DNA of 45,606 nt from a virus: positions 1-45,606 of the IMG/VR virus record IMGVR_UViG_3300009128_000031, one strand, 5' to 3'. Shown here piece by piece: positions 9,765-37,400 of the stretch; position 1 is the stretch's first letter; each line of letters opens with the position of its first letter. The position numbers and the translations under genes were made by a program. The notes below the pieces were generated by a model. That model made no database searches and had not been told where the DNA came from. It worked only from the letters and a program-made list of their open reading frames with translations.

Positions 9765-9772
9765 GAGGGTAA

Positions 9773-10138: not shown

Positions 10139-10343
10139 AAAGGAGAAAGCAGCCCGTGCTGAAATGGCGGATAAAATGGTTCACCTGTGGGAAACAGGGT
10201 TTACGGGAAATATAACTATCAACTGTAAACACGGAGTACCCATGAACTATAACGTTAACTATACGGGCTATCAACGCAGACCATTAACAAAAGAGATTGA
10301 AGACTTAAAAAAACAACTAAATCAGAGTTACAAGGAGGATTAA
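10095..10343 (+). CDS. Small head-module protein
   Basis: An 82-residue protein starting at ATG 10095 (MDETKKETLKTKLSEKE), chosen because GGAGGGG stands just before it; the longer upstream frame has none. The N-terminal third is a charged helix. The middle, ITINCKHGVPMNYNVNY, may be a small beta hairpin. It ends right against the scaffold start. Function unknown. Confidence 0.6.
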   Translation: MDETKKETLKTKLSEKEKAARAEMADKMVHLWETGFTGNITINCKHGVPMNYNVNYTGYQRRPLTKEIEDLKKQLNQSYKED

Positions 10344-11135: not shown

Positions 11136-11145
11136 GAGGGGATTT

Positions 11146-11535
11146 ATGGCAGACGAACAGGTAGAAGTAAAAATTGAACAAATAGAAGACCACTGGGAAG
11201 ACCAGTCAAAGGTTATTGGAGATCCAGACAAATACTACGAATGGGCTCTGGAGAATGACAAGACCGCTATGGCAGGGGTCATAAAGAAAGGGTTTCAGAA
11301 AACTACTGACCCTAAAGTAAGAGCACCGTACGGAAAACGAAGAGAAGACGGTACGATAGTAAGACAGCAGTATTATGAAACTTTGGTGTTGATTGAGATG
11401 CCGAAGAAAATGAGGGCCGCTATAGAACAAAAAAAGGCCGAGTTAGCTGAGAAACGGAATCTAACACCAGTACCCGAGGCGAGAGGGGTCAAACAAACGA
11501 TCCGCAAAGTAAGGAAACAGAAAAAGGCCAAGTAA
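11146..11535 (+). CDS. Small capsid-region protein
   Basis: A 129-residue protein with an acidic start and a very basic end (KQTIRKVRKQKKAK). GGAGGGG precedes the ATG. It lies between scaffold and decoration genes. The basic tail could contact packaged DNA or the capsid lattice. No family recognised. Confidence 0.6.
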   Translation: MADEQVEVKIEQIEDHWEDQSKVIGDPDKYYEWALENDKTAMAGVIKKGFQKTTDPKVRAPYGKRREDGTIVRQQYYETLVLIEMPKKMRAAIEQKKAELAEKRNLTPVPEARGVKQTIRKVRKQKKAK

Positions 11536-11547
11536 GGGAGGATTATA

Positions 11548-12072
11548 ATGCCAGACAGACCAAATGGTTTTAGTCTTATGGAGAACGAGAAGTATACGAT
11601 TAAACGCTTTGAGGTTCAGGGCGATGAAGCACTTACAGTCGCTCCTGGCGATTGCGTTGACCAGGATGGGGACGGTTACGTTGCCCGTGCTGCTGCTAAT
11701 GCCGGTGTGACCGTAGTTGGCGTTGTAACGAATTGTTATAACTCTAGCATGGTAGCGCAGAAGTCTTTAGCTGCTAGTACAGCAGGATTTGTTGATGTAG
11801 CGCTTGCATTACCTGGAACACGGTTTATTGTTCAGGGTAACGGTACAGATGCGTTGGCAAATATTGGTGCTACAGCCAATCATGTTGATGGTGCTGCTGA
11901 TACATTTAGGGGTAGATCCATTCAGGAACTTAACAGCAGTGACTATGGTTCAGGATTACAACTGCGTGTATTAGGCAGAGTAGATGCTGTTGATAATGCG
12001 TGGGGAAGTAACACTGACATGGTTGTTGTATTTAACGAATCTATCTTCGCTGGCGATCAAGCGAGTGTCTAA
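11548..12072 (+). CDS. Putative capsid decoration/stabilisation protein
   Basis: A 174-residue beta-rich protein without charged helices (for example EALTVAPGDCVDQDGDGYV and GVTVVGVVTN). The gene sits directly upstream of the major capsid gene, where phages often encode a decoration protein. The small-residue-rich sequence (Ala, Gly, Val, Asp) fits. The function is inferred from position and composition. Confidence 0.6.
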   Translation: MPDRPNGFSLMENEKYTIKRFEVQGDEALTVAPGDCVDQDGDGYVARAAANAGVTVVGVVTNCYNSSMVAQKSLAASTAGFVDVALALPGTRFIVQGNGTDALANIGATANHVDGAADTFRGRSIQELNSSDYGSGLQLRVLGRVDAVDNAWGSNTDMVVVFNESIFAGDQASV

Positions 12073-12090
12073 GTAAAGGAGGAATGACTC

Positions 12091-12987
12091 ATGGCTATAA
12101 CACTAACGACCATTGCGGATGAGCTTAGTCCGATCGTCAAGCGTGGTTATGCAGAAGGAGCAAAGGCTTACAGCCCAGTTTATGACAAGTTTATGAATGT
12201 GGAGAGTTCCGCAGATTATTATTGGGAAGAACTGGAAGCTGGCGGCATAGGGTATTTACAGCAGATTGGTGAACTTGAAGACGTACCGACCGCTGATTTC
12301 ACATACGGTAGCACGAAACAGTATGTGGCAACTGGCAGAGGGTTGTCTATCGTAGTTGGCCGGCAAACCTGGAAATACCAGAGATTGGGAATTGTTTCCC
12401 AAAGTTCCAAAATGCTGGGTATGGCAGTTAAGAAGACTGTTGATGAAGATTGCACAGCATTGTTCAACGATGGAGATGATACTTATACCACTCCAGACGG
12501 ATTGTTCATTTTTGATACCGCACATATTAACCTCTATGGCGGTACTTACGATAACATTCCTGGTGCGGCAAGTGCATTGAGTATTAGTGCGGTTAATAAC
12601 GCATACTATCTGATGAGCACAACTCTGAGACATGATGTTGCTCCTGGTGGAAACCAGCCGAAATATATCATGTTTCATCCTAACAAGGCGTCAGTAGTAC
12701 ATGCGATTCTTAAAAGCGCACAGATCCCTGGTTCCGCTAACAACGACAGCAACTTCATGTTCAACAGATTGATTCCGATTGAGAACAATCTTCTGAATAA
12801 CATTAACAGTTGGTATTTGCTGAGTGACAAAGCGGATCACAGGATGAAACTTGTATGGTTTATGAAACCTAAAATGAGCCGGTGGACACAAGATAGTAAT
12901 AAGTCTATCCACTTTGATGTGGTGACGGATTATGATCGTGGTGCTACCAGTGGCTTGGGCCTATGGGGCGAATACGCAGCTGCCTAA
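12091..12987 (+). CDS. Major capsid protein, HK97-fold type
   Basis: A 298-residue protein. It has an N-terminal helix, the segment DYYWEELEAGGIGYLQQIGE (E-loop region), a long helix beginning SKMLGMAVKKTVDEDC, and a C-terminal beta-rich P-domain region ending in WGEYAAA. Size, gene order and these patterns fit HK97-fold capsid proteins similar to the Mu gpT group. GGAGG precedes the start. It should be the most abundant virion protein. Confidence 0.85.
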   Translation: MAITLTTIADELSPIVKRGYAEGAKAYSPVYDKFMNVESSADYYWEELEAGGIGYLQQIGELEDVPTADFTYGSTKQYVATGRGLSIVVGRQTWKYQRLGIVSQSSKMLGMAVKKTVDEDCTALFNDGDDTYTTPDGLFIFDTAHINLYGGTYDNIPGAASALSISAVNNAYYLMSTTLRHDVAPGGNQPKYIMFHPNKASVVHAILKSAQIPGSANNDSNFMFNRLIPIENNLLNNINSWYLLSDKADHRMKLVWFMKPKMSRWTQDSNKSIHFDVVTDYDRGATSGLGLWGEYAAA

Positions 12988-13015
12988 CGATAGAGATATC
13001 AAGGAGGGATAAGGT

Positions 13016-14083
13016 ATGAAAAAAGTTCTATTTATCGCATTCCTTATTTCTGTCTTAGGAGTAGGGTTTGTGTTGTACGCCGCAATAGGCGATAGATTCA
13101 CCATAACGGATGAAGGCGGTGCTGATGATGTGTTTCGGGTAAACAGTAGTGGCGTGGTTGTGCTAGACAACGGTGAGAGCATTGATAACTCTACCGATGG
13201 CACGATTTCGTTTACTGATGGCACGAACACATTATGGTCAATCGTTGATACTGGCACTACAGGTGATTTGTCGGGGATTCGTAAAGTTATCTTTGATAAC
13301 GGAGAAGAGATCGAGAACATTACTGATGGTGATCTAGCGTTCACAGACGGCACCAACGATTTGATGATTCTCCGTGATACTGGCACTTCAGCTGATTTGG
13401 TTGGACTCAGTATTGTTGAGATGATTAATGGTGAAACGATGGAGAATGACGTAGATGGTCAGATTAATTTCACTGATGGCACGAATACTTTAATGCAGAT
13501 TATTGATGGCGGTACGAGCGGTTCGATTAACGTTACCGGTATTGATAATGGTGACGCCAACATTGCTAATGTAGGTCAGATTGCTCTCGATTCACTTGAT
13601 GCTGATGGTTCAGACATTTCCATTGGTGATGGTGATGAAACCTTAACAGTTAATTCATCTGATTGGGATATTGACCCTTCTGGTATTGTTACCGGGGTAG
13701 GTGATATTACTTCAGATGGAGTGATTCAGGGAGCTGGTTTCAGGATGACTGGTGGTGAAGCAATTACCGCAAGTACAATTTTAGTTAGTTCTGATAGTGG
13801 TAATTTGTTTGCGGTTACTGCAAATGGAGTAACAATGACGTTGCCTGAAGGAGTTACAGCCGGCAATGTTTACACTATTGTTGCTTTTACTAGCAGCCAA
13901 GTGAACATTGATCCTACCGGGACAGACACGATTATCTATTCTCCTAGCGGCAATTCTTTAGCCGGTGGAGATAGATTGCTGAGTGCTGCTAGCGCTACAG
14001 GGACTTCAGTAACTTTGGCTTGTGACGGTAATGGTGGCTGGTTTGTAACAGCGATTAATGGTACTTGGACAGACAACGACTAA
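13016..14083 (+). CDS. Exported three-repeat beta protein in the head-tail block
   Basis: A 355-residue protein. It begins with a Lys-Lys start and a hydrophobic helix (MKKVLFIAFLISVLGVGFVL) like a Sec signal. Three repeats of about 43 residues follow, each starting with a form of NGE and containing FTDGTN (roughly 51-93, 94-136 and 137-177). The C-terminal 100 residues form a beta domain with the pattern AGNVYTIVAF...LACDGNGGWFVTAIN, similar in style to the end of the 17352 gene product. It would suit a fibre or surface protein, but a signal peptide on a virion protein is abnormal. AAGGAGGG precedes the ATG. Confidence 0.7.
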   Translation: MKKVLFIAFLISVLGVGFVLYAAIGDRFTITDEGGADDVFRVNSSGVVVLDNGESIDNSTDGTISFTDGTNTLWSIVDTGTTGDLSGIRKVIFDNGEEIENITDGDLAFTDGTNDLMILRDTGTSADLVGLSIVEMINGETMENDVDGQINFTDGTNTLMQIIDGGTSGSINVTGIDNGDANIANVGQIALDSLDADGSDISIGDGDETLTVNSSDWDIDPSGIVTGVGDITSDGVIQGAGFRMTGGEAITASTILVSSDSGNLFAVTANGVTMTLPEGVTAGNVYTIVAFTSSQVNIDPTGTDTIIYSPSGNSLAGGDRLLSAASATGTSVTLACDGNGGWFVTAINGTWTDND

Positions 14084-14108
14084 AACTGATTTTGTGAGAG
14101 AGTTAAAC

Positions 14109-14138
14109 GGGGGAGGGGTGAAATAATGCCTCTCCCCC
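14109..14138 (+). promoter_or_regulatory. Hairpin sequestering the ribosome site of the Wzy/WaaL-like gene
   Basis: GGGGGAGGGG (14109-14118) pairs with CCTCTCCCCC (14129-14138): ten pairs including one G-U wobble. The 10-nt loop TGAAATAATG ends with the start codon at 14126-14128. The ribosome-binding GGAGGGG is wholly in the 5' arm. There is no U-tract on either side, so a terminator is less likely than translational control. Confidence 0.7.
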
Positions 14139-15259
14139 AAGGATGGTGGATAATGAAAAAGAATACCACATGGTTAGTAATATCGGTCTTTCTCATAGCG
14201 TTTTTTGGGTATATGTACCCGAAATTCTTTCAAATACGAGCAGCTAAAGAGGTATGGATACTGTTTGTGTTCTTCATGGTAGCAGCTTGCTGGATAAAGA
14301 ACTGGTGGTTGAGATTGTTCTTCTTGGCTTGTACGGTTACAGCATTCATACACCATACAGCCCCAGTATACTTCAGCTTTTTTAAAGTAGCTTGCGGTAT
14401 GGGGATATTATGCTTGCTTGTTCAATCTTTGAACAATAAACGATTATCACCGATTTTGAACATGCTTTGTGTGATTGCGTTATTAAATGCGTTGTATGCT
14501 TGGGGTCAGTTCTTTGACTTTGACCCGATATACCACCCGTACAAGAACAATACGGATAACCTGACATTCACACGCAAGATAGTAGTGGGGTTCATGCACA
14601 ATCCTAATCACCTGTCAGCACTCATAGGGATATGTTTACCGTGTTTTTTCAGGCGTAAATGGTGGGTATTAATACCGGTGGTTCTTTCAGCCCTGTTCCT
14701 AAAGAACTGGACAGTGTGCCATACCAGAGGGGGAATGTTACTTGCAGCGTTTACACTTGCTTATTTCCTGTTCTTTTATTTGGATAGTTTCAAAGAGATA
14801 GATACGTTCTGGTTACTATTGTTTTTTGTTATCTTGGGGATGAATATTGTTTATGTGTTGTACAGGTGGAAAGGAGCGCAGGGCAGGTTGGTTTGGTGGG
14901 AGAAAATAGTAAAGAATATGAGTCAGGCAGCTTGGTTTAAGGGTTATGGATTAGGGAATTTTAAGGTTTTGAGGCCGGTAGGCAACAGGGTTTTAGAAGC
15001 GCATAACGAATATTTTCAAATACTTTATGAATCAGGAATGTTTAGCTTATTAGCTGTGATAGGGTATATCGCAGATTCTATATATAAATTTATTAAGATG
15101 AAGAAGACACAAGAAACACTAATAATATTTTGTGTTCTTTGCTGTGTAGCAATTAACTGTTTAACTAATTTCACGTTTCATATGCCACACCTGATGATAA
15201 TTGCGCTCTTAGCGATAGCAATGTGGGAAGTGGTTAAAAAGGAGGTAGCAAATGGCTAG
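14126..15259 (+). CDS. O-antigen ligase/polymerase-like membrane protein (WaaL/Wzy family)
   Basis: A 377-residue multi-pass inner-membrane protein with about ten hydrophobic helices. The family signature is visible: HNPNHLSALIGICLP near residue 160, the Arg-containing periplasmic loop (GAQGRLVWWEKIV, then WFKGYGLGNFKV near 260-280), and EAHNEYFQILYESGMFSLLA near 290-310. WaaL and Wzy enzymes join or polymerise lipid-linked glycans in the periplasm. A phage copy could change the host surface polysaccharide after infection. The start at 14126 lies in a hairpin loop; a second ATG at 14153 (MKKNTTWLVIS) has a weaker GGTGG site. It overlaps the next gene by 8 bp, so it belongs to the late operon. 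Confidence 0.85.
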   Translation: MPLPQGWWIMKKNTTWLVISVFLIAFFGYMYPKFFQIRAAKEVWILFVFFMVAACWIKNWWLRLFFLACTVTAFIHHTAPVYFSFFKVACGMGILCLLVQSLNNKRLSPILNMLCVIALLNALYAWGQFFDFDPIYHPYKNNTDNLTFTRKIVVGFMHNPNHLSALIGICLPCFFRRKWWVLIPVVLSALFLKNWTVCHTRGGMLLAAFTLAYFLFFYLDSFKEIDTFWLLLFFVILGMNIVYVLYRWKGAQGRLVWWEKIVKNMSQAAWFKGYGLGNFKVLRPVGNRVLEAHNEYFQILYESGMFSLLAVIGYIADSIYKFIKMKKTQETLIIFCVLCCVAINCLTNFTFHMPHLMIIALLAIAMWEVVKKEVANG

Positions 15260-15641
15260 AGTTGGTGGAAATATTACGATATTTAGTGCGGAGTTGGTTA
15301 ATGGTACTGGGGCGGTAAGAAGCGATTCAATCGATATTGGTTCTCATGGAACTAATTTCGGGATTGCGATTGTGGCTACTTCTGTTCTGGGAACCCCTGA
15401 CCTGCTGGTGCAGTATGAGCAGAGTTTCACAAGACCCACAACTGAAGGTTCAGCGGATACAAACTACGTTATTCCTGACGGTGCACCGGATATTGTAACT
15501 AACCTTACCCAGGAAACATATTTCATTACCAGTGTTAGTGCTGTGCCGATGAACTATATCCGTATACTTATCACCGGACAGGCAGGAAATCAAACGGATA
15601 CTTTAGTCACCGCTTACTTTTACAGAATGGAAGATGCGTAA
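15252..15641 (+). CDS. Small beta-rich late protein
   Basis: A 129-residue beta-rich protein with no charged helices (MARVGGNITIFSAELVNGTG...). AAGGAGG lies inside the end of the upstream gene. No signal peptide. Probably a minor virion component. Family not recognised. Confidence 0.6.
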   Translation: MARVGGNITIFSAELVNGTGAVRSDSIDIGSHGTNFGIAIVATSVLGTPDLLVQYEQSFTRPTTEGSADTNYVIPDGAPDIVTNLTQETYFITSVSAVPMNYIRILITGQAGNQTDTLVTAYFYRMEDA

Positions 15642-15653
15642 AAAGGAGGAATC

Positions 15654-16523
15654 ATGGGATGGGAAGGCGAAGATACTGTTTATACGACTGTACTAAAGGG
15701 GAAACCTAATCCTTCTACAATAGCGAAGTACAACGCTGAATTAGGGAAGATCAAAGCTGATATTCTTTCGTTAGGTAAAAAGAAGGAAGCATTGATTGCG
15801 GCACTTGAACAGAACAAGGCTGAAGCGGCAGATGATATTACTGCTGCTAAAGCTGAGAAGATTAAAGCTATTAGTGAGATGAATAAGATCAAAGCTGAAC
15901 TCAAAAAAAAGGAGCAGGTTAAAGAGGAAATGGAAGCTGAACTCAATCAAGCACAAGCTGATGCAGATACCAGATTGGTGGATTTGCGTAAACGTGAAGC
16001 TAGTTTGAAGAAACTGGATCAATCGTTGCAGAACAAGGCAACCGGTATCAGGGAAGCAGAAGCGAAAGCAAAGGCTACTCAGATAGCGATACAGAAAGAA
16101 CTCAAGGAACTAGCGGTAGCCAGAGCCAGGGATGAAGAAACCTTGGATGAACTAGACGAACGCAGAGCGTTAGTAAGGGATATGGAAGCTACCCTGACAG
16201 AATCAGCCAATGCGATTAACGAAAGGGAAGATTTACTTAAAGCCGATAGGCTCTTAGTGGAGCAGCAGATTAGTATTTACGAACGGAAAGATAAGGCATT
16301 AAAGAAACAAGAAGCTGAAGTAAACATGAAAAATGTTCAGGCAGAGAAATTGATTGCTAACAGCAAGACTACTTTGGAGAAAGGTAAAGAGTTAATGGAG
16401 CAGATGAAGGATAAAGAGCGTATGTTAGCGAGTAAACAACAAGCATTGAATTTACAGGCAAAAGATTTAAGAGAGTATAGTAAAACCCTTGATGCAAGGG
16501 AGAGGGCGTTAAAGAATGGATGA
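15654..16523 (+). CDS. Long coiled-coil protein
   Basis: A 289-residue protein that is almost entirely heptad coiled coil, rich in Ala, Glu, Lys and Leu, from about residue 20 to the end (for example AELKKKEQVKEEMEAELNQ). The first 20 residues contain MGWEGEDTVYTTV, a possible docking peptide. AAGGAGG precedes the start. It overlaps the next gene by 8 bp. It could be a virion spacer, fibre shaft or assembly rod; nothing shows which. Confidence 0.7.
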   Translation: MGWEGEDTVYTTVLKGKPNPSTIAKYNAELGKIKADILSLGKKKEALIAALEQNKAEAADDITAAKAEKIKAISEMNKIKAELKKKEQVKEEMEAELNQAQADADTRLVDLRKREASLKKLDQSLQNKATGIREAEAKAKATQIAIQKELKELAVARARDEETLDELDERRALVRDMEATLTESANAINEREDLLKADRLLVEQQISIYERKDKALKKQEAEVNMKNVQAEKLIANSKTTLEKGKELMEQMKDKERMLASKQQALNLQAKDLREYSKTLDARERALKNG

Positions 16524-17337
16524 GCATGTAAGGCAACTAGCAAATCTTCTTGGAGTATTGATTAATCCTGCTACGGAAGAGAAGCAGGATGATAGTATTG
16601 CCAATCAGACAGACGGTACGCAAAAGACCCAGATTACTGATGGGGTGAATGACGTTGAAGTAGAAACCTTAACGGATAGCACACATGACCTTGACGGTAA
16701 GAAAGGGATAGTAACGGCAAGTGCTATTTACGGTCGTCGTGATGATGATGATGCCAGACCAATAGAGATGGATGCCGCTACTCACGCTATTGAAACGATT
16801 GAATATGAACACCATGAAATACATAGCGGTAATGCTTTTGTAGTATGTTTTGAGAACCAATGTACAAATACTGGTGAACAATCTGTTGTTGCGTTCAATA
16901 CTCCTGACACAACAAAATGGATTCACATAGTGGCTACTGGATTTTGCACTTCTTTAACCAGACTTGAGATATTAGAAAATCCTACTATTGATAATGATGA
17001 GGGAACGCAAATAACGCCCTATAATAGAGACAGGAATAGCAATACTTTAAGTGAAGTTACTTCTGTTCAAGCCGCTCCTGTATCTAATAATGTTACTACG
17101 TTTAATGAAGCACAAGCGGCTGGTGCTAATATAACCGGGACAGTAATAGCTTCAGTTATTATAGGCTCTTCTGGCGGTTTTTTGGGTATAGGTCAGGCTG
17201 GAGGAGCGGCATCAGGGAGATATGAGTTTCTATTAGAACAAAATCAGCAATATGCGTTTAGAGCCACTAGTTTAGACAATAACGATAATTACCATGTAAT
17301 AGAATTGAATTGGTATGAACATACGAACAAGAGTTAA
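16516..17337 (+). CDS. Putative virion appendage protein
   Basis: A 273-residue protein. The N terminus has a phage-style linker (NPATEEKQDDSIANQTDGTQ), common near the attachment ends of structural proteins. The rest is beta-rich with Thr, Asn and Gly, and the end reads YHVIELNWYEHTN. Unlike its neighbours it has no signal peptide. It is probably a structural or adhesive protein; identity uncertain. Confidence 0.6.
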   Translation: MDEHVRQLANLLGVLINPATEEKQDDSIANQTDGTQKTQITDGVNDVEVETLTDSTHDLDGKKGIVTASAIYGRRDDDDARPIEMDAATHAIETIEYEHHEIHSGNAFVVCFENQCTNTGEQSVVAFNTPDTTKWIHIVATGFCTSLTRLEILENPTIDNDEGTQITPYNRDRNSNTLSEVTSVQAAPVSNNVTTFNEAQAAGANITGTVIASVIIGSSGGFLGIGQAGGAASGRYEFLLEQNQQYAFRATSLDNNDNYHVIELNWYEHTNKS

Positions 17338-17351
17338 TTAAGGAGGGTTAG

Positions 17352-19691
17352 ATGAAGAAGGTTTTGGCTATCGTAACGGGGATTGTACTAATCAGTGGTT
17401 CTGCTTTCTGTTGGGAAGCTGGATGGGAGCAGGCGAAACGTTTCAACTACCTTAAAGTAGGCGGTGGGTACGGACAGACCGGCTGCGACATTGACGGGGA
17501 TGGCGGTATTCAGACAGATAATGGCGTTACTGCTGACAGTGTTGAAATTGGTGGTGGATATGGAGACACTGGTATTAGCCTCACCAGAGAAGGTGATGTA
17601 AGTTTGAATGGCGATCTCGTTGTTGATGGTACGACCACAATCTCCTTAGCCCAAAACTTAGAAGCGGCTTTAACCGTTGATGTAGATGCTGATGAAGCAT
17701 TACTTATTCGTCAGAACGGTGATGCTGGTGACATATTGATTGTTGACACAAATAACAGTATCGTAAATATTCCAGATGATGTACTTCTCGCATGTGGCGA
17801 TAGTGACGATAGTAGTTTTGCGTTTAATACAGCACAGACGGTAGATTCGCTGTTTTTAACGTTAGCCACTGCTAGTAGACATTTAACAATTTGTGAAGCA
17901 GGGGATCAGAGTACAAATTTCGCACATACACAATCTACAAATCCGACTTTATTTATCCAATCATCAGATCAGGCGACTGTAGCAGATTGGCTTGCTTTTA
18001 CTCACAATCAAACTAATGGTGTAATTACAACAGGCGCAGGTGACATTACGTTTGACCCTAATGGGGGGGTAGTAACATTGTCCGGGATAACTGATAGTTT
18101 TAAATCAAATATACTTCAGACTGTTTCCGCTGGTGCTCTTTCTGTAGAGGGTAATGTAGCGGATGGCGGTGGAGTGGCTGGAGTACAAATTGGAAATGAA
18201 ACTAGTTTAACAACAGCAGGTGATAAGATATTGAGTTTATATCCTGATGGGCTTACAACAGAGGTTGCATATTTTGATTATTTAGGTGGATTGATTATAG
18301 CTCAAGGAGCTGGTACTGGTACACCAATAGCATTTAGCGTTACAGGAGGCGCACATACGGCTTTAACAGCGGCTACAGAAGTAACTGGAGTTACTTTTGA
18401 TTTTTCCGCTAATAAGACATGGGCGTCTGGTGCTGGGCCGTTAGCCACGCAACGTGAAATAGAGTTCTTACGTCCAACCTACATTGGTGATGCAGGTGGT
18501 GCATTAACGATAACAGATGCGGCTACGGTTTATATTGATAACGCTCCGGCAGCTGGTGCTAATATGACGCTTACTAACGCTTATGCTATGTGGGTAGATG
18601 ATGGCAGTTGTCGTTTTGATGGTAATGTTCTAGTTGACGGAACTATTGATACAGTTACAGCTACAGCTTTGAATGTTGGTACAGCGACACAAACAGCGTT
18701 AACTCTTGGTAGATCAGGGGTTAATACAACAATTGATAGTGTTTTAATCTTAAATAATTCTACTGTTTCTTGGTCAGCGAGTGCTTCAGCTCCAAGTGTT
18801 TCACAAGGTACTAGGTCGGGAGATCAAGCAACTAGTAATATGACATTGGTTGCACAAACTGCCTATCAGGATGCTTCTGATACAACTAATGATGATGGTG
18901 GCACATTGGTTCTACAAGGCGGTGACGCTAACCTATTGGAAACGGTAGGCGGTGATGGCGGTAATGTAGTGTTACAGCCTGGAAACAACGATACTGGCGG
19001 TAATGGAGATGATGGTTCTGTATATGTTTATTGCCCCGGTAAGACAATTGGCTCTGACCCTGATTACATAGAAAGTTATCACGATGACACAAACGCATAC
19101 ATTACGACTGGTGTAGGTGATTTAAACATATCAGCTGTTGCCGGAAGTGGTGTAAGTATTAATAATCTATTAGCTGGTAAGATTGACATGCCTGACGATA
19201 GTTACTCTATCTCAATGGACGTACCGTCAACTACCACTGCTTCAAGTGGTGATGATGTAGGATATTCTTTTGCGGTAGATGGATTCCCTGTATTTGATGT
19301 AATTGCTGATGCCGATGGTGACGGTTCTGTTACGGACGATGGTGTGCAGTTACATGGAGCGTTCTGGGCTGCTCCTGTGACATATAGCATGGCAGCAGGT
19401 ACAGCAATTACTACCGATAGCGTTTCTATCAGGGTATATGGTTCTGGTGCTGCAACCACGCTTACTGGTACGCCTACGTTGGAGGCAGGTGCTAGGGACG
19501 GGCAGATAGTAATGATTATCGGCACTAATGACACCAATACTGTTACTTTGCAGGATGAGAGCAATCTTGCAAATAGTGATTTACAACTTAGTGGCGGTAT
19601 TGATTTCACGCTTGGGTTAGGGGATACGATACAGCTGTATTACGACCTTACCGATACGGAATGGTATGAATTATCCAGATCAGATAACTAG
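17352..19691 (+). CDS. Large exported fibre-like protein
   Basis: A 779-residue protein with a Sec-type signal peptide (MKKVLAIVTGIVLISGSAFC), then a low-charge, Gly/Asp/Thr-rich beta sequence throughout. Repeated short motifs include GGGYGQTG/GGGYGDTG near residues 37-75 and ALTLGRSG near 450. The C-terminal 100 residues (DGQIVMIIGTN... to EWYELSRSDN) look like the compact beta cap often seen at the ends of phage and bacterial surface fibres. AAGGAGGG precedes the ATG. Probably a receptor-binding or surface protein; why it carries a signal peptide is unclear. Confidence 0.72.
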   Translation: MKKVLAIVTGIVLISGSAFCWEAGWEQAKRFNYLKVGGGYGQTGCDIDGDGGIQTDNGVTADSVEIGGGYGDTGISLTREGDVSLNGDLVVDGTTTISLAQNLEAALTVDVDADEALLIRQNGDAGDILIVDTNNSIVNIPDDVLLACGDSDDSSFAFNTAQTVDSLFLTLATASRHLTICEAGDQSTNFAHTQSTNPTLFIQSSDQATVADWLAFTHNQTNGVITTGAGDITFDPNGGVVTLSGITDSFKSNILQTVSAGALSVEGNVADGGGVAGVQIGNETSLTTAGDKILSLYPDGLTTEVAYFDYLGGLIIAQGAGTGTPIAFSVTGGAHTALTAATEVTGVTFDFSANKTWASGAGPLATQREIEFLRPTYIGDAGGALTITDAATVYIDNAPAAGANMTLTNAYAMWVDDGSCRFDGNVLVDGTIDTVTATALNVGTATQTALTLGRSGVNTTIDSVLILNNSTVSWSASASAPSVSQGTRSGDQATSNMTLVAQTAYQDASDTTNDDGGTLVLQGGDANLLETVGGDGGNVVLQPGNNDTGGNGDDGSVYVYCPGKTIGSDPDYIESYHDDTNAYITTGVGDLNISAVAGSGVSINNLLAGKIDMPDDSYSISMDVPSTTTASSGDDVGYSFAVDGFPVFDVIADADGDGSVTDDGVQLHGAFWAAPVTYSMAAGTAITTDSVSIRVYGSGAATTLTGTPTLEAGARDGQIVMIIGTNDTNTVTLQDESNLANSDLQLSGGIDFTLGLGDTIQLYYDLTDTEWYELSRSDN

Positions 19692-19700
19692 GAGGTTTAT

Positions 19701-20237
19701 ATGCGTAATTTAATAGCTTTGGTGCTTGGTTTAACATTGGTTTGCACACCTGTTCTTGCAGTACAAGTAGGTGGTGCTGGACATGCAAGCGGAGAAGTAT
19801 CGGATGCAACATTTGTGTGGCATTTAGGATTTGCAGATTTTTTATTCATCACAGGACAGCCGATTGAACAAAGTAGTGCAAACATGATATATCCAGACAC
19901 TGTTAATGATACGATTTACGCTCCACTAGGTGTTCCGTATCAAATGTTTGGTGGTACGGTAGTTTTAGACCAAATAACCGTATATTATTATACAGCTGAT
20001 AATGGTGATGATTTTGATTTTGATCTTTATCGTGCTGACCACGATGGTACTGTAACGTCAGATGCTTCTGAAGCAAATATAGGAAATGGAGGAAGTGGAT
20101 ATGCAAGTGAAACCATATTAACGGGAGATGTTACTTTGGCTGATTTTGCGTATTCAATGAGTTTTGATGTTAACAACACGAATGTAGATACAAACGTAAA
20201 GATTATAGATGTCAAAATAGAAGCACATTTAGAATAG
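19701..20237 (+). CDS. Exported small beta protein
   Basis: A 178-residue protein with a canonical signal peptide (MRNLIALVLGLTLVCTPVLA, then VQVGG). The mature part is beta-rich and acidic, with a pattern (GTVVLDQITVYYYTADNGDD) that suggests a jelly-roll-like module. AGGAGG overlaps the end of the upstream gene. Probably works with the flanking exported proteins. Confidence 0.65.
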   Translation: MRNLIALVLGLTLVCTPVLAVQVGGAGHASGEVSDATFVWHLGFADFLFITGQPIEQSSANMIYPDTVNDTIYAPLGVPYQMFGGTVVLDQITVYYYTADNGDDFDFDLYRADHDGTVTSDASEANIGNGGSGYASETILTGDVTLADFAYSMSFDVNNTNVDTNVKIIDVKIEAHLE

Positions 20238-20246
20238 GGAGATTCT

Positions 20247-22289
20247 ATGCTAAAGAAAACTTTAATAAGCATTACGTTATTAACGATTTGTTGCATTTCT
20301 TTTAATAACGAAGCACGGATAATTGAGAGTGATCCTGTTAGCCGTGCTGATTTAAATTTAGAGTTGGATTTCGGTAACAACAACGGTACGGATACGGTGT
20401 ACGATACTGGGGGATCCGACTTAAACCAGACGGAAACAGGTACGCTTACATTTGCTGTTACGGGGGTAGATTTTCCTGGCTCGAATAATAATCATTTTTC
20501 TGGCACAGGTACGGGAGTATATAACACTGCTAATTGTAGCATTATGTATGTATTTACTCCTGATTTTGCCGCTAATGATGGTTCATATTATGTGCTTTCG
20601 GATGGGGCAGATGCAAACACTAGATACGGGATATTTAAACAGGCAGGAGCACAAAGTAATTCATTGGTTGCTATGATAGGCAATACTGTATTAACCACAG
20701 TAGCACTTGCTACTTATGAAGATTATTGGTTAGCAGACGAGAAGAATGTGCTTATTTATTCTGGGACTACAGGGGACAACAATATTTGGTTAAATGGAGA
20801 ACAGATACAAAATTCAGAAGCTACTGCATGGACACCGGATGATCCAGCGACAATTTACATTGGTTCCAGTTATATTGGAGGAAGTTGTTTCGATGGGGAA
20901 ATGCATGATTTTAAAGTGTGGCAACGGTTACTTACGGCTGCTGAAATAGCGGATTTAAGTGCTGATAGGATAGTAGAAAATGATGCTGTCAGCCGTGAGG
21001 GAATGACGTTGGAGTGGAGTTTCGGCAACAATAACGCTACAGATACGGTTTACGATACCGGCGGTAGTGATTTAAATGGTACTGAAACAGGAGTAATGGT
21101 GTTTGTAGAAGGTTCTGACGGGTATGTGCAATACACTGGCGGTGGAGCAGCAAACCATATCTCTTACTCTCCTGGTACTGACCCTATTGGTGGAGGGGCG
21201 GAAATATCTATTGCTGTTAAATACAGACCTAATTTTGCAGCTGATGATGGCAATAATAGACCAGTGTTTGATAGTAGTGGAACTGAATATAGCTTAAAAA
21301 GACCTAGCGATAATAACTTAGACGTAACTTTAGGCGGTACGTTAATAGAGTCTATTGCTACTGCTTCATTTGAAGGTGAGTGGGCGGCTAACGAAACAAC
21401 CATATTTGTTGTTGTAAGTTCTGCAACTACTGATAGAACAGATTTTTACATGAACGGTACGCAGATACTTAATCAAGATACGACTGCCTGGGCACAGGGA
21501 GCGGTAACTCAACTGTTTGGTGCTGGCGGTAATGGTTCTTGGGCTGGTAGGGGTAATTGGTATTATCTTAAAGTATGGGATAGATTGTTAACGGCTGATG
21601 AAGTAGCTGCTCTAAGTGCTGATAGGATTGTAGAAATAAGTGCAGCTTCCCGTGTAGACTTAGTATTGGGTTTGCCTATGGATGCCAATGATGTCAACGG
21701 AACTACGGTATATGATAAGTCAAATGAAGGCAATAACGGTACCACTACTGGTTCTCCAAGTACAGTTCCAGCGCAAATCAAGGAAGGAATAGACTTAGAT
21801 GGGTCAAGTCAATACATTACGGTAAGTGATGCCGATAGTTTAGATTTCAGTACGGGAGAGTTTGCTGTATCTGCATGGATAAATCTGGATACTAATGCGG
21901 CGGCTAGTCAGCATAAGACGATTCTCTGTAAAGGCGACCCGGAAAATGCGAATGAATATGCTTTGCAAGTAAATGGAAATGAAGTTGGCACATTAACATG
22001 GAGAGTAGATGCGGTTAGTGATGCTACTAGTACGGGTACTATATCGTTGAATACATGGCATCATGTAGTTGCAACGAGAGTGGGTTCTAATGTGTATTTG
22101 TATATAGATGGCAGTGCAGATGGATTAGGTGCATCTGCTGATGATTTGGATAATTCTTCTGATGTTATTTTTGGATACCGAAACGCAGGATATAATGCTT
22201 ATTTTGATGGCACGATAGATGATGTACGATTCTATAGTCGTGGATTATCATCGGCACAAGTAAGTGAACTTTACGAGGCAGGTAGATAA
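20247..22289 (+). CDS. Exported protein with three LamG/concanavalin A-like domains
   Basis: A 680-residue protein. After a hydrophobic N terminus (MLKKTLISITLLTICCISF) it has three tandem lectin-like domains at about residues 27-240, 240-460 and 460-680. Each starts with a SR-containing strand; the first two then share FGNNN and VYDTGGSDLN, and the third has PMDANDV and VYDKSNEGN. The third has the classic laminin-G_3 signature (EFAVSAWINL, then SLNTWHHVVATR and IDDVRFYSRGLS). LamG domains bind glycans, so this fits adhesion to the host surface. It is the best candidate for a carbohydrate receptor-binding protein. Its stop overlaps the next start. Confidence 0.85.
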   Translation: MLKKTLISITLLTICCISFNNEARIIESDPVSRADLNLELDFGNNNGTDTVYDTGGSDLNQTETGTLTFAVTGVDFPGSNNNHFSGTGTGVYNTANCSIMYVFTPDFAANDGSYYVLSDGADANTRYGIFKQAGAQSNSLVAMIGNTVLTTVALATYEDYWLADEKNVLIYSGTTGDNNIWLNGEQIQNSEATAWTPDDPATIYIGSSYIGGSCFDGEMHDFKVWQRLLTAAEIADLSADRIVENDAVSREGMTLEWSFGNNNATDTVYDTGGSDLNGTETGVMVFVEGSDGYVQYTGGGAANHISYSPGTDPIGGGAEISIAVKYRPNFAADDGNNRPVFDSSGTEYSLKRPSDNNLDVTLGGTLIESIATASFEGEWAANETTIFVVVSSATTDRTDFYMNGTQILNQDTTAWAQGAVTQLFGAGGNGSWAGRGNWYYLKVWDRLLTADEVAALSADRIVEISAASRVDLVLGLPMDANDVNGTTVYDKSNEGNNGTTTGSPSTVPAQIKEGIDLDGSSQYITVSDADSLDFSTGEFAVSAWINLDTNAAASQHKTILCKGDPENANEYALQVNGNEVGTLTWRVDAVSDATSTGTISLNTWHHVVATRVGSNVYLYIDGSADGLGASADDLDNSSDVIFGYRNAGYNAYFDGTIDDVRFYSRGLSSAQVSELYEAGR

Positions 22290-22723
22290 TGAGATTAAGA
22301 ATGGATGAAGTAGTGTTATTGCTTGTTACAGTAGGTGCGATATTCATTGTGTGTTTACATGCGTTTGGTGCAGATTATCTCGGCGAAATTTGGCAGATTA
22401 AACATGCTAACGGTAAGAGTGAGTACGGCATTATTCTCAGGGATACGATCTACGGCACTAATGACGTAGCTACCTACATTATCGAGAACGAGCTTACCCC
22501 GAAAGACTATGTGTATATCAAGAAGAACAAGAGTGGCAAGATAACCAAATGTATCTTCTCTGATACAGCTGAAGGGATATATACCAGCCAGAACGCTAAT
22601 TCTGAGGCTGGCAACAAGAAGATAAAGAAGTTCATTTATCGTGGTGGTGGCAAGAAATTAAACGAAGATTTTAACGATTGGCGTAAAGGAAAGAAACTAT
22701 CTGTTGAAGCAGTGCCTTTATAA
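22289..22723 (+). CDS. Membrane-anchored or exported small protein
   Basis: A 144-residue protein with an N-terminal hydrophobic helix (DEVVLLLVTVGAIFIVCLHA). It may be a signal peptide cut near FGA/DYL or a membrane anchor. The remainder is basic and probably beta-rich (GEIWQIKHANGKSEYGIILR). The start overlaps the LamG gene stop by one base (TAATG). Function unknown; it shares the export feature with its neighbours. Confidence 0.62.
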   Translation: MRLRMDEVVLLLVTVGAIFIVCLHAFGADYLGEIWQIKHANGKSEYGIILRDTIYGTNDVATYIIENELTPKDYVYIKKNKSGKITKCIFSDTAEGIYTSQNANSEAGNKKIKKFIYRGGGKKLNEDFNDWRKGKKLSVEAVPL

Positions 22724-22735
22724 TGGAGGTTTAAT

Positions 22736-23830
22736 GTGAATCTTCTGGAAGTTTATCAAGAAGCATTTAGACGTAGTGGTGCTAAAGACACTACAGACGG
22801 GCGTAACAGTGTTCGCTTATGGGTGAACAGTGCGGTTGAGGATATGTGCCGGCACTTGTTTGAGAGTCAAGTAAGAGAGTATCGTTTCCGTACTATTGCC
22901 CCTTATGAAACTGGTACTGTCACTGTAACAGACGGTTCTACCACTCTTACTGGCAGTGGAACTACATTTACCTCTGCTATGGTGGGTAGGAAGATTAAGG
23001 TAACTGGTGTGGATGATATATACCGCATATCAGCATTTGTATCTACAACTGAGCTTACATTAGATTTAGCGTTTACGGGAACAACAACAGCTGGCCTGAC
23101 CTTTGAGTTATACCAAGACGAGTATGATTTACCGTACGATTACATTGCTACTAAAGCTATGTTCAGATATGAGGAACCGTTAGAGAAGGATTCTCAAGTT
23201 TGGGATATTTGGTATAACAAGGGAGAGTTTAATAGCGATGAACCTCAGAAATTTATTGAGACAGAATGGACTGATTCTGCATATTATTCTACTGGGACTA
23301 TTACTAATTCTGGTGCAACTGTTACGGGAAGTGGTACAGCTTGGGATTCTACGATGGTGGGAAGGGTTCTTATTGTTGATGCTAATGACATTGAGTATCG
23401 GATTACAGCGGTAGCCAGTGGCACATCCCTTACCGTTCATAAAACTGGTATGAGTGCTAGTACGAGCGCATATGAGATAGATCCTGCTCCTTGCAGGAGA
23501 GTGTTGCTTTACCCTGCGCCTGACGATGAATATATTATTAATCTTAAATATTACTGTAAGTTTTTGAGAGTAAACAACAATAACGAGCAGTTACCGTTCC
23601 AGAAAGTATTTCATCCGATTATCATGAATTATGTTTATTGGAAATTCACTCAGCATCAGAAAGGGATAGCTGAAATGGCAGATGCTAAAGCGGATTATAT
23701 GATGAGTTTACATGACGCTAAATTATTTAATAGCCGTGTCAAATGGCGTGGCAAAGAAAAGTCGAGGTTACATGCGTGGACTGAATTGGAAAAAACTTAT
23801 ACTACTACTCGCCGTTCTGCTGACGTGTAG
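22736..23830 (+). CDS. Putative head-tail adaptor/tail-tube A-like protein
   Basis: A 364-residue protein starting with GTG at 22736 behind GGAGG; the ATG two bases earlier is followed at once by a stop. The N-terminal helices (NLLEVYQEAFRRSGA... and the Trp-containing AVEDMCRHLFES) and C-terminal helices (YVYWKFTQHQKGIAEMADAK) resemble podovirus adaptor proteins that sit below the portal. Two inserted beta modules share GSGT and MVGR motifs (about residues 60-130 and 185-245). It has no signal peptide. The partner nozzle protein follows directly. Confidence 0.7.
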   Translation: MNLLEVYQEAFRRSGAKDTTDGRNSVRLWVNSAVEDMCRHLFESQVREYRFRTIAPYETGTVTVTDGSTTLTGSGTTFTSAMVGRKIKVTGVDDIYRISAFVSTTELTLDLAFTGTTTAGLTFELYQDEYDLPYDYIATKAMFRYEEPLEKDSQVWDIWYNKGEFNSDEPQKFIETEWTDSAYYSTGTITNSGATVTGSGTAWDSTMVGRVLIVDANDIEYRITAVASGTSLTVHKTGMSASTSAYEIDPAPCRRVLLYPAPDDEYIINLKYYCKFLRVNNNNEQLPFQKVFHPIIMNYVYWKFTQHQKGIAEMADAKADYMMSLHDAKLFNSRVKWRGKEKSRLHAWTELEKTYTTTRRSADV

Positions 23831-25364
23831 GGTAGCTCTAGCGCAGGACAATCTTAAAGCACAGAAGTATTTTGGCCTAACTAAAGGTGTTAATAAAGCT
23901 CTCAATCCAATGATGATTGATGATCGGGAGCTTGCCTCTGCACAGAATGTTTATTTTGATGAAGGGAGTATTCTCACCCGTCCCGGCATGGCAACAGTTC
24001 TTAATTCTGTTGCTGTTACCGGAGATGTAGTAGGGTTCCATGATTTTGCTCTTCCTGATGGCAACCGTTATTTCATGTGCGCTTCAGACGATAACTATCT
24101 TTACAAGATGGATGGGTTAGACGGTACATGGGATACGATAAATACTAGTTTCACCTGTGATAATGTTACATTTACCACCTTTGTGCTTACCAATGGGGAT
24201 ACAGTAGCGATTGCTATGGATGATGGAGCTACCCCTGTATACTGGGATGGTTCCTCTGCTACGACCACAGAACTTCCTACAGCTGAAGCTAATGCTATCC
24301 AGATAGTACACCGCAACAGATTATGGGCTGCCGGCAATGATGATTTTCCTAACAGACTATCTTATACAGACGTTTTAGAGGCAGATGATTTTACAAGTGG
24401 CGGGACAATTCAGATAGATTTTAATGACGGTGATGAGATTACTGGATTAGCTGAGTTGAAGTACAGTGGTACTACAATCAATAACTATCTGGTTATATTC
24501 AAGAAACGGTCAATTTATGTTTTGGATGCTTCAGACCCTACAGACACTAATTGGGTAGTATCAAAACTCAATTCAAATGTAGGGTGTATAAGTAACAAGA
24601 GTATTCAGAACATAGATAACATGATTCTGTTTCTTGCCTATGATGGTGTGTACAAGTTAGAGGGCACAAGTGTGTCGCAAATATCTGACCGGATAGACAC
24701 TGATATTAACGCTATTAACCCTGCTCGCCTAGACGATTCTGTTAGTGTGGTATTCAAAGATTACGACCATTACTTGTTGGGTGTTAGTGACGGTAGTGCT
24801 ACTCAGAACAATGTTATTCTAGCTTATGACTATTTGTTGGATGCTTGGTTAGGTGATTGGACTGGGTTAGTTCCAGGGCAAATGACAACTGTTACAGACC
24901 CTACAACTTTAGAACAGTTTATTTATTCTTCTGATTACAATTCAACTGTATTTAGAATGTATACTGGCACTAATGATAACAGTGCAGCGATAGACGCTAC
25001 TTTTGACACTAAACGGTTTACGTTTGATTTAGCGTGGATGAAGCACATACGTTACGAATACGTTTATGCAGAAGGCAGTGGTGCGTGGGAACTAGATGAT
25101 TATTACCGTCTTGATTCAGGGAGCACTTGGACTTCTGGAACTTTAGACCTTACCCCAGCTTCTAATTTATGGGGAACAATGGTGTGGGGTACAGACGTAT
25201 GGGGTTCTGAAGATGATGTTAAGTTACGCAGAGAGATTGATAAAGAATGTTGGGGTATACAGTTCAGGTTCGGGAATGATGATTTGGATGAATACTTTAA
25301 ATTCTATGGGTTTATAGTTTATTTACAAGGTATTAGACGTAGTGAATATTACGGGGATCAATAG
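23772..25364 (+). CDS. Tail-nozzle/stabilisation-like beta-propeller protein with signal peptide
   Basis: A 530-residue protein from ATG 23772, chosen for GAGGTTAC before it; a longer frame from 23712 is less likely. The core has the podovirus nozzle pattern NPMMIDDRELASAQNVYFDE, then LTRPGM, followed by propeller-like beta repeats, as in P22 gp10-type stabilisation proteins. It plugs or extends the tail below the adaptor. Oddly, it begins with a canonical Sec signal (MRGLNWKKLILLLAVLL then TCRVALA/QDN). The start lies 59 bp inside the adaptor gene. Confidence 0.75.
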   Translation: MRGLNWKKLILLLAVLLTCRVALAQDNLKAQKYFGLTKGVNKALNPMMIDDRELASAQNVYFDEGSILTRPGMATVLNSVAVTGDVVGFHDFALPDGNRYFMCASDDNYLYKMDGLDGTWDTINTSFTCDNVTFTTFVLTNGDTVAIAMDDGATPVYWDGSSATTTELPTAEANAIQIVHRNRLWAAGNDDFPNRLSYTDVLEADDFTSGGTIQIDFNDGDEITGLAELKYSGTTINNYLVIFKKRSIYVLDASDPTDTNWVVSKLNSNVGCISNKSIQNIDNMILFLAYDGVYKLEGTSVSQISDRIDTDINAINPARLDDSVSVVFKDYDHYLLGVSDGSATQNNVILAYDYLLDAWLGDWTGLVPGQMTTVTDPTTLEQFIYSSDYNSTVFRMYTGTNDNSAAIDATFDTKRFTFDLAWMKHIRYEYVYAEGSGAWELDDYYRLDSGSTWTSGTLDLTPASNLWGTMVWGTDVWGSEDDVKLRREIDKECWGIQFRFGNDDLDEYFKFYGFIVYLQGIRRSEYYGDQ

Positions 25365-25374
25365 GGAGGAGAAG

Positions 25375-26502
25375 ATGAAGAAATTGGTTTTAGTCCTATG
25401 TGGAACAATATTAGCGGCACAGGTTTATGCTAGTGATTACTCTGTTCAGAACACATACACTAACGGTGCTGTGGCAGATGCGGATGCTATTACCGCAGAT
25501 TTCAATGCTGTATCTACGGCTAGTACAACCAAGCTAGATGAAACAGGCGGTACAATGACCGGTGCATTGACTATGGATGTAGGGAGTAACGATATAGTAA
25601 CAACCGCTAATGGTGATTTGGATTTAACCCCTAATGGTACTGGTGATGTGAATTTATTTGCTGATACGGTTGCTATTGGGGATTTAGATACAGATGTAAC
25701 GCTGACGACTGAAGGTACTGGTGATTTGACTCTTAATACCAATGCTGGCACAAATTCTGGAAGCATACTCATTGCTGACGGTTCTAGTGGAGATATTACT
25801 ATAGATCCTAGTAGTTCTGGCAATATTGTTATGCACAATGCAACAACTTATTTTGATTCAGATGGTGCGTTGATTTATACTGGTGCAGGGGTAGACACCC
25901 AAGGTATAGAGTTTCATAATTCTGACAATGATGTTTCTGTTATTTATTTTCAAAGGATTGGCAGTGATGACACTGATTTAACGTTGTTGATGGCCGATGA
26001 TCCTAATAATAACATACGGTTTGAATTTAATGATCCTAGTAATTCGTTAGAGTTTTATTTTGCATCTAATGGTAACGGATATGCAGATAATTCATGGACA
26101 ACGTTCTCTCCTAAGATTGATAAGCACATGGAAAAGAAAGGTAAGAAAGCTAAAGATGCTACAGCCTCGGATTACCTTGATTGGGCATTAGAAGATGCTA
26201 AGAAACCTGCTAAACCGTATGATGGGATAAGTGGTAAGAATGAACTTGAACATTTAGAAGGGAATATAAATAAAGAAAAAAATAAACCTGATAAGAACCA
26301 GGAAGTGATAGATGAACTGGAAACTAAAAAAGGAAAACTTATTGAGTTGCAAACTGAATATCCTGATAAGACAATCCAAGAGATTGAAATTGATCTTTAC
26401 GGTAAAGATATTTGCCGGATTGCTATAGGAACAGCAATTTGGGCTGAAGATGCACAAGCTAAATTAGAAGAGTTAGAGGCTCGTATAGAAGCGTTAGAAT
26501 AA
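25375..26502 (+). CDS. Exported tail-fibre-like protein with coiled-coil end
   Basis: A 375-residue protein starting at ATG 25375 (GGGAGGAG just upstream). It has a canonical signal peptide (MKKLVLVLCGTILAAQVYA, then SDY). Residues about 20-45 (TNGAVADADAITADFNAVST) resemble the start of many phage fibres. The middle is a repeated beta region (LTPNGTGDV, LTTEGTGDL). The end is helical (IAIGTAIWAEDAQAKLEELE) and looks like the last coil of an intramolecular chaperone tip. Probably a receptor-binding fibre; export again unexplained. Confidence 0.7.
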   Translation: MKKLVLVLCGTILAAQVYASDYSVQNTYTNGAVADADAITADFNAVSTASTTKLDETGGTMTGALTMDVGSNDIVTTANGDLDLTPNGTGDVNLFADTVAIGDLDTDVTLTTEGTGDLTLNTNAGTNSGSILIADGSSGDITIDPSSSGNIVMHNATTYFDSDGALIYTGAGVDTQGIEFHNSDNDVSVIYFQRIGSDDTDLTLLMADDPNNNIRFEFNDPSNSLEFYFASNGNGYADNSWTTFSPKIDKHMEKKGKKAKDATASDYLDWALEDAKKPAKPYDGISGKNELEHLEGNINKEKNKPDKNQEVIDELETKKGKLIELQTEYPDKTIQEIEIDLYGKDICRIAIGTAIWAEDAQAKLEELEARIEALE

Positions 26503-37389: not shown

Positions 37390-37400
37390 GCTCCCCTCCT

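Follow-up and report, generated by a model that had tools for sequence, protein, structure and literature searches.

Conserved export signals on the tail nozzle and fibre-like proteins of a family of uncultured short-tailed phages

The tails of tailed phages are held to assemble entirely in the cytoplasm, and in P22-type phages the nozzle seals the filled head. Virion proteins synthesised with Sec-type signal peptides are characteristic of filamentous phages such as M13. Among other described systems, D3 and the VarioGold serotype-conversion clusters carry a phage-borne Wzy_C-type enzyme, which in the VarioGold clusters, as the relevant sections of the source describe them, has signal-bearing neighbours (PMC9658991). 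Tailed-phage genes that obey host export rules, with a Gln noted at +1, are described in Porphyromonas gingivalis phages, where the signal-bearing set consists, in the sections that treat it, of unknown genes, spanins and capsid proteins, the capsid leaders being thought to be cut by the prohead protease (PMC10367356); unlike the system described here, no nozzle or receptor-binding protein is reported in those sections among the signal-bearing genes (PMC10367356). The first-pass annotation of the present DNA knew of no standard phage system like it, and our literature searches agree, no tailed-phage system with such export signals having been found within their limits.

The window analysed here, viz. 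the whole stretch of 45,606 nt (positions 1 to 45,606 of the IMG/VR record IMGVR_UViG_3300009128_000031), is the complete genome of a short-tailed phage. It contains terminase, portal and icosahedral-head capsid genes (PHROG families) as well as lysis-type genes. With the P22-like short tails (P22 gp10 and the nozzles of Pa223, VP1, SU10 and T7 gp12) it has in common the nozzle fold, the place of the nozzle after the adaptor and the terminase-portal-capsid gene order; it differs from them in the cleavable-type Sec signals that precede the entire nozzle and several fibre-like products. The likeness to filamentous phages lies in the Sec-type signals on virion proteins, but here the tags are found on tail and fibre-like parts only, and membership in the filamentous phages was rejected because terminase, portal and capsid genes are present. 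When the nozzle, the capsid protein, the terminase and the products of genes 28855 and 17352 (genes are named by their start positions) were used as single queries, they returned only same-species IMG/VR records or no match; against 50,697 phage records, the nozzle of the clade described below gave 1 weak match and none close, and its capsid protein gave none.

Seven genes of the window open with a hydrophobic N terminus at the starts proposed in the first-pass annotation, and six of them have an in-frame ATG and a clear or moderate ribosome-binding site, the site of 22289 being weak. These genes were evaluated with a signal-peptide scorer calibrated on Escherichia coli K-12 (cut-off 6.5, without additional transmembrane segments), which found 28/35 exported E. 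coli proteins with no false calls among 94 cytosolic and 32 membrane proteins (0/126 in total), and with an independent trained logistic model, which in leave-one-out trials found 29/35 and made false calls for 1/94 cytosolic and 5/32 membrane proteins. With the first scorer, six of the genes pass and 20247 is weak; the logistic model accepts five (13016, 17352, 19701, 23772 and 25375; 0.52-0.95) and rejects 22289 and 20247 (Table 1). On these combined verdicts, the signals are firm in five genes, doubtful in 22289 and weak in 20247. The same grading applies to the n-, h- and c-regions with a small residue at -1 that were found in these proteins. Textbook cleavage sites had been claimed for 19701, 23772 and 25375, and they read VLA|V, ALA|Q and VYA|S, respectively. 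Six of the 23 late window genes of at least 120 aa score as signals, vs 22/1,491 same-strand genes from 166 loci, nearly all terminase-anchored, of other phages and prophages (binomial P 8e-7).

Table 1. Features of the window discussed in the text; paired scores are those of the first scorer and of the logistic model
Feature	Position	Strand	Evidence
Major capsid protein, without signal	12091..12987	+	PHROG head families; homologous to MCPs of G002 (E 8e-9) and G003 (E 3e-8)
SPa, signal-bearing, adjoins capsid gene	13016..14083	+	7.64 / 0.78
Multi-spanning membrane protein resembling O-antigen ligases (Wzy_C)	14126..15259	+	Alternative start 14153
SPb homologue, without signal	15252..15641	+	Score 3.7; E 1e-5 to L262 11169-11615
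Signal and repetitive fibre-like protein, ~760 residues	17352..19691	+	7.43 / 0.52
Signal and 158-residue protein, no family assigned	19701..20237	+	8.01 / 0.87
Weak signal and three Laminin_G_3 lectin-like domains	20247..22289	+	5.22 / 0.06
Possible signal or anchor, 144-residue protein just 5' of adaptor	22289..22723	+	7.02 / 0.15
Adaptor-like protein, without signal, adjoins nozzle	22736..23830	+	Weak match to L262 3017-3796 (E 0.025)
Tail nozzle (P22 gp10 / Pa223 type) with signal	23772..25364	+	PHROG 3287, 578; model; Foldseek
Nozzle signal peptide, 24 codons	23772..23843	+	8.81 / 0.89
Signal and fibre-like protein 3' of nozzle	25375..26502	+	8.27 / 0.95

That the nozzle-like protein itself has a signal, as the first-pass annotation maintained, is borne out by both scorers and by the match of its fold. 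The structural model of this protein (pLDDT 76, pTM 0.79; a first model built from 6 sequences reached a pLDDT of only 40 and was discarded) matched 9nwi_Y in Foldseek (E 9e-26; Z 31.6 over 458 residues, 3.1 A), and its comparison with solved nozzles gave Z 31.6 for Pa223 and Z 25.6 for P22 gp10. The nozzle fold spans the full length of the protein, and the first residues of the solved nozzles align with model residue 28-30; hence the 24-residue signal precedes a complete nozzle. No ATG, GTG or TTG lies in frame between the start of the gene and the nozzle fold, so a later start could not delete the signal, and its loss in this manner, raised earlier for related phages as a possible refutation, is ruled out for the window nozzle. 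The predicted mature protein has a net charge of +3 across its first 18 residues, the values in its relatives ranging from -5 to +1.

The same trait, for which related genomes were to be searched, recurs in them. Signals were present in 3/66 readable nozzle homologues, and searching from those 3 led to a clade in which all of the 15 readable nozzles carry one; L275, whose 5' end is missing, and L270, which has a signal-like stretch with no usable start, were excluded as unreadable. For the nozzle of L264, the start adopted is a TTG with a score of 6.4; an ATG located 30 nt upstream scores 7.4. The -1 residue of the nozzles is Ala in 15/16 and Gly in 1/16, and the +1 residue is Gln in 14/16 and Glu in 2/16. 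The adaptor-then-nozzle order is the same in all 16 clade records that have an adaptor. Four of the records (G002, L190, L264 and L278) stem from a single sample, yet they are divergent, the other nozzles being 45-53% identical to that of G002. No isolate of the clade was found.

The signal trait is real, conserved and sorted by protein family. Signals are present in 16/18 members of the nozzle family (1 of the others is truncated and 1 is without a usable start), 11/14 of the Mtd-like cluster, 3/3 of the SPa cluster and 3/4 of the SPb cluster, the window protein 15252 being the SPb member without one. None was found in the adaptor (0/16), capsid (0/6), ligase-like (0/5), decoration, scaffold and portal proteins (0/4 each), in a 114-aa family (0/8) or the family of the gene at position 26514 (0/8), or in the window terminase. 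The receptor-binding types among the signal-bearing proteins of the clade include the Mtd domain (Mtd_2nd above cut-off in four proteins), the S74 chaperone (Peptidase_S74, 38.6 bits) and tail-fibre families (phrog_863, E 1e-29; phrog_9942, E 3e-36). Periplasmic disulfides were rejected as a rationale for export because the Cys content is unchanged (0.74% in exported and 0.79% in other proteins).

The first-pass annotation had placed all seven genes in a virion module; this stands for the nozzle, and for 13016, 17352 and 19701 it is suggested by gene position, together with the sequences of 13016 and 17352, which we take to resemble phage fibres, as the C terminus of the 17352 product presumably does. 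The C-terminal domain of SPa (248-355) is conserved in G002 and G003, whose proteins also carry signals, and blastp matched SPa to L259 9124-9597 (36%, E 4e-10) and L262 12802-13311 (32%, E 0.03). Huge-phage matches to 17352 (L177 and L178) cover a single domain and were set aside; the L177 gene scores 6.9 with an extra hydrophobic stretch and is unconvincing. The 20247 product matches Laminin_G_3 with 147 bits over 3 stretches, and the LamG relative L259 4225-5085 scores 7.7 when counted from the second ATG. The counterpart in G002 at the slot of 22289 is a 118-aa signal protein. The slot of 25375 is occupied in relatives by signal-bearing proteins, some of the Mtd type, a relation that is positional only.

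The Wzy_C-like protein of the window scores 22.4 bits with Pfam Wzy_C, under the gathering cut-off of 31.7, which its relative L269 6524-7750 exceeds (47.4 bits). The ligase-like proteins share a multi-spanning topology and an HNE motif that is invariant in 5/5; the only PDB match was a weak one to WaaL (7tpg, E 0.11). Unlike the D3 and VarioGold clusters, as the available description presents them, the gene lies here near the capsid gene, between the capsid and tail genes, in the late orientation, and is conserved in five records. In L273 and L276, its slot is taken by a multi-spanning protein without Wzy_C similarity.

In regard to the host, the clade nozzle profile was searched against 124, 295, 395 and 398 genomes from four phyla, which were reached through loci titled Cloacimonadota (G007), Nitrospirae (G005), Bacteroidota (G008) and Desulfovibrio (G006), and against 10 single genomes. 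Matches were obtained in 17 genomes, 8 of them with loci that were inspected. Seven of these loci hold nozzle relatives with no signal from the called start; the eighth (L282) is signal-bearing but of low similarity, and was taken for a host protein. A negative outcome of this search carries little weight. A Bacteroidota host by the Q-rule is unsupported, since +1 Gln occurs in 14/16 nozzles but in just 3/61 of the other signal proteins of the clade.

From the signals and their conservation we infer, with a probability of about 0.5, that Sec exports the nozzle, fibres and receptor-binding proteins and that these dock outside the cytoplasm to heads already filled with DNA, probably upon lysis. 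Sec would move the tagged proteins over the inner membrane, signal peptidase I would cut the tag and leave Gln or Glu as the N terminus of the nozzle, and the proteins would fold in the periplasm or at the cell surface during the maturation of DNA-filled heads within the cytoplasm. Opening of the inner membrane by lysis would let the two pools meet, and the nozzle and fibres would attach to the adaptor. Against this scheme count the absence of a signal from the window protein 15252, the uncertain signals of 20247 and 22289, the unchanged Cys content and the charge of the mature window nozzle. The putative Wzy_C-like enzyme may work on the periplasmic face, where, speculatively, it could alter the surface glycan and spare periplasmic receptor-binding proteins from trapping by their own receptor or, alternatively, could put glycan on the exported proteins. 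The complete picture, a two-compartment virion of cytoplasmic heads and Sec-exported, peptidase-cut tail parts, perhaps Wzy_C-modified, that are joined at lysis, we hold tentatively, at a little under even odds.

The tagged proteins could instead be exported without being virion parts. Acting late in infection with the Wzy_C-like enzyme, they would cover or alter the envelope of the host and could serve in receptor masking, superinfection exclusion or release from debris. Moron-like clusters pair phage O-antigen enzymes with signal-bearing genes, as described for VarioGold (PMC9658991), and five signal-bearing genes of the P. gingivalis phages are read, in the section concerned, as potential modifiers of the host outer membrane (PMC10367356). 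However, its fold and gene place mark the nozzle as a virion part, a second, untagged nozzle gene was not seen among the listed genes, and Mtd, S74 and tail-fibre domains occur in tagged proteins. Because of the nozzle, Mtd and S74 identities, virion parts are favoured over mere host coats, and we consider the coat unlikely. Uncleaved signals that anchor the nozzle and fibres to the inner membrane during assembly would accord with the strong hydrophobic cores, which are long in 13016 and 22289 (19-residue mean hydropathy 2.6-2.8), but insertion of the signal would leave the protein across the membrane from the heads, and the small -1 residue and the Gln or Glu at +1 are constant in 16/16 nozzles despite the variability of the remaining signal. 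This conserved site speaks for cleaved export rather than for a tether, which appears quite unlikely. Hence, among the three readings offered by the first-pass annotation, cleaved export of virion parts is the favoured one, and the tether and the host coat are disfavoured.

Use or removal of the signal without export, through delayed folding or assembly or a cytoplasmic cut by a phage protease, would spare the phage from returning exported nozzles to cytoplasmic heads; it is improbable, as nothing positive speaks for it, no phage protease was identified for the cutting, and the complete n-, h- and c-region structure is maintained across families. Chance, wrong start codons or composition might be suspected from the first 59 nt of the window nozzle gene, which overlap the end of the adaptor gene, so that overprinting could yield a hydrophobic stretch. 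This explanation is largely refuted by conservation and is scarcely credible: the starts of six clade nozzle genes overlap the adaptor stop by 4 nt, out-of-frame ATGs within genes reach at least 6.5 in 37/4,129 cases and at least 8.8 in 2/4,129, and every readable clade nozzle has a signal that no adaptor has.

Our results indicate that a family of uncultured phages tags its tail nozzle and fibres, not its head, and that its virion may be put together from two pools, one within the cell and the other beyond the inner membrane. The Ala|Gln or Ala|Glu nozzle signal provides a simple marker for such phages in metagenomes, and the clade-wide signals on nozzle and receptor-binding proteins make the rule of cytoplasmic assembly directly testable. 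If export is real, late joining would require another means of DNA retention, since the nozzle seals the filled head in P22-type phages, and the heads must hold their DNA without a nozzle until lysis. It would also offer a natural route to secrete phage fibres and, if the proposed scheme is true, would constitute a two-compartment assembly route of a kind that we found described for no tailed phage.

The two ends of the window are identical to each other over 119 bp, and we therefore treat it as a complete phage genome (~45.5 kb), in which terminase, portal, scaffold-like, capsid, adaptor-like and nozzle genes follow the order of short-tailed phages. Closest to it are two IMG/VR contigs from the same species, whose main blocks are 99.3–99.9% identical to it.

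Signals were scored on their n-, h- and c-regions by a scorer calibrated on E. coli K-12 proteins that we labeled ourselves, in part by product name, as exported (35), cytosolic (94) or membrane (32) proteins; when proteins with a further transmembrane stretch are excluded, a cut-off of 6.5 finds 28 of the 35 exported proteins and 0/126 others. The first-pass annotation had assigned Sec-like signal peptides to seven virion-module genes, and this stands for six of them by the scorer (20247, genes being named by start position, falls below at 5.2) and for five by a second classifier, a logistic model with different features, which rejected 20247 and 22289. The remaining late proteins of the window score from −6.0 to 3.7, except for the multi-spanning 14126 (6.0). 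The comparison set, 166 loci from other phages and prophages, has 1,491 same-strand genes of at least 120 aa; 22 of these pass the scorer (several being, by our reading, host genes adjoining prophages), compared with 6/23 in the window (P 8e-7). No late protein with a signal was found in three freshwater phages from Manatee Spring, save a holin-like membrane protein, and the nozzle relatives of three isolates (Pelagibacter HTVC103P, Rhizobium RHph_N3_19, and HMO-2011) score 2.0–2.6.

The claim that even the nozzle-like protein has a signal is borne out. The 23772 product matches stabilisation/nozzle families and passes both classifiers, and its structure model (27 sequences; pLDDT 76, pTM 0.79) aligns with the Pa223 nozzle (9nwi_Y) over 458 residues at 3.1 A (Z 31.6; Foldseek E 9e-26) and with other solved nozzles (SU10, Z 28.2; VP1, Z 27.5; P22 gp10, Z 25.6). 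The first residues (1–3) of the solved chains align with model residues 28–30, so that cleavage at the predicted site, after residue 24, would remove none of the nozzle itself. The signal codons overlap the final 59 nt of the adaptor gene, and the stretch from the 23772 start to the nozzle fold contains no further ATG, GTG or TTG.

A search of related genomes for the same trait, proposed in the first-pass annotation, recovered it in a clade of uncultured phages. A two-row nozzle profile matched 80 homologues in IMG/VR, with signals in 3 of the 66 that have a readable 5' end (L186, L187, and L190; scores 8.1–9.6); genes neighbouring the L186 and L187 nozzles are also signal-bearing, and the signal of the L190 neighbour is lipoprotein-like. 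The relatives containing L186 and L187 (G002 and G003) share the order of the window, viz. capsid, signal protein, multi-spanning protein, more signal proteins and fibres, adaptor, and signal-bearing nozzle. The profile of these three nozzles matched 17 loci, and all 15 readable nozzles (one other being cut and one lacking a usable start for its signal-like stretch) carry signals of at least 6.4; the logistic model accepted 13 of them (the other two at 0.40 and 0.44) and 0/16 clade adaptors. Across 16 nozzles, including the window's, the −1 residue is Ala (15) or Gly (1) and the +1 residue Gln (14) or Glu (2), Gln being found at +1 in 3/61 other clade signal proteins. Since clade nozzles are 43–53% identical to the G002 nozzle, and two compared with the window nozzle show ~29% identity, the nozzle signals are kept across long divergence.

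Signals are present in 75 of 213 clade proteins of at least 80 aa. Protein clustering over 18 records places them in the nozzle (16/18), an Mtd-like cluster (11/14), the signal protein next to the capsid gene (3/3), a second signal-protein family (3/4, the exception being 15252 of the window) and a 125-aa family (3/3), and in no member of the adaptor (0/16), 114-aa (0/8), 26514-position (0/8), capsid (0/6), ligase-like (0/5), decoration (0/4), scaffold (0/4), portal (0/4) and 60–72-aa (0/3) families. The 20247 product has three Laminin_G_3 stretches, and the C-terminal domain of 13016 is common to tagged proteins of G002 and G003. In the multi-spanning 14126 and its relatives there is a shared Wzy_C region, and an HNE motif is invariant; 14126 scores 22.4, below the Pfam cut-off of 31.7, and the L269 relative 47.4, above it. 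Among solved structures this family matches just one, the O-antigen ligase WaaL (7tpg), and that weakly (E 0.11). A ligase-like gene is found in five of the seven records with the slot visible, and a different multi-spanning protein in the other two.

Coordinates of features in the window and in other loci
Feature	Source	Position	Strand
Small protein, strong signal (8.6), outside late block	window	1585-1866	-
35-bp stretches, mutual match 91%; gap in L002 alignment adjoins	window	3930-3964, 3999-4033	
Terminase	window	5023	
Portal	window	7902	
Scaffold-like	window	10344	
Capsid	window	12091	
Adaptor-like; stretches 57-123 and 182-248 belong to a domain known elsewhere from tail-fibre PHROGs	window	22736-23830	
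Nozzle	window	23772	
Glycoside-hydrolase-like (Cellulase 23.4 bits, slightly below cut-off), perhaps a lysin	window	33532-34461	
Overlapping small genes, could be a spanin pair; 34847 with lipobox-like site (VGSGC)	window	34720-35110	
Small protein, strong signal (8.4), outside late block	window	35368-35589	-
Dam-type DNA adenine methyltransferase (114 bits)	window	36952-37404	-
Tagged, Mtd second domain above cut-off	L261	2503-3324	
Tagged, Mtd second domain above cut-off	L269	12952-13821	
Tagged, Mtd second domain above cut-off	L266	13154-13981	
Tagged, Mtd second domain above cut-off	L267	12942-13787	
Tagged, Peptidase_S74 and beta-helix	L276	4722-7694	
Tagged, tail-fibre PHROG	L273	12309-13157	
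Tagged, tail-fibre PHROG	L262	7898-9955	
3,504-codon open frame near tail genes, size as very large virion-internal proteins	L260 (G002)	9395-19909	-
Odd Phe/Met/Lys-rich stretch (such stretches ~100-190 codons) before nozzle	L270	4192-4770	
The same, in Mtd-like cluster member	L271	3823-4120	
The same, in Mtd-like cluster member	L261	3338-4378	-
Genes with glycosyltransferase and methyltransferase annotations, placed between the capsid and the nozzle genes, freshwater podophage	L007	3147-11978	

In keeping with the earlier remark that no standard phage system resembles this, searches of open-licence papers turned up no account of tailed phages whose nozzles or receptor-binding proteins bear signal peptides. 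Individual papers describe signal-bearing genes in P. gingivalis phages (PMC10367356), two rumen phages with one or two signals (PMC5723332), target proteins of phage diversity-generating retroelements, said to be without signals (PMC6199706), cellular hypermutation targets with signals (PMC8144416), the VarioGold ligase cluster (PMC9658991), and the Q-rule (PMC5837995).

The tags, their conservation and that of the cleavage site, and the identity of the nozzle are established by this analysis. We infer that the head and adaptor would constitute a cytoplasmic pool, and that the nozzle, fibres and receptor-binding proteins would be exported, have their signals cleaved and join late, when the two pools meet at lysis. 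The chief difficulty of this proposal is that filled heads would be without a nozzle before lysis. The pattern of an untagged head and adaptor with tagged nozzle, fibres and receptor-binding proteins fits a virion joined at lysis from cytoplasmic and exported pools.
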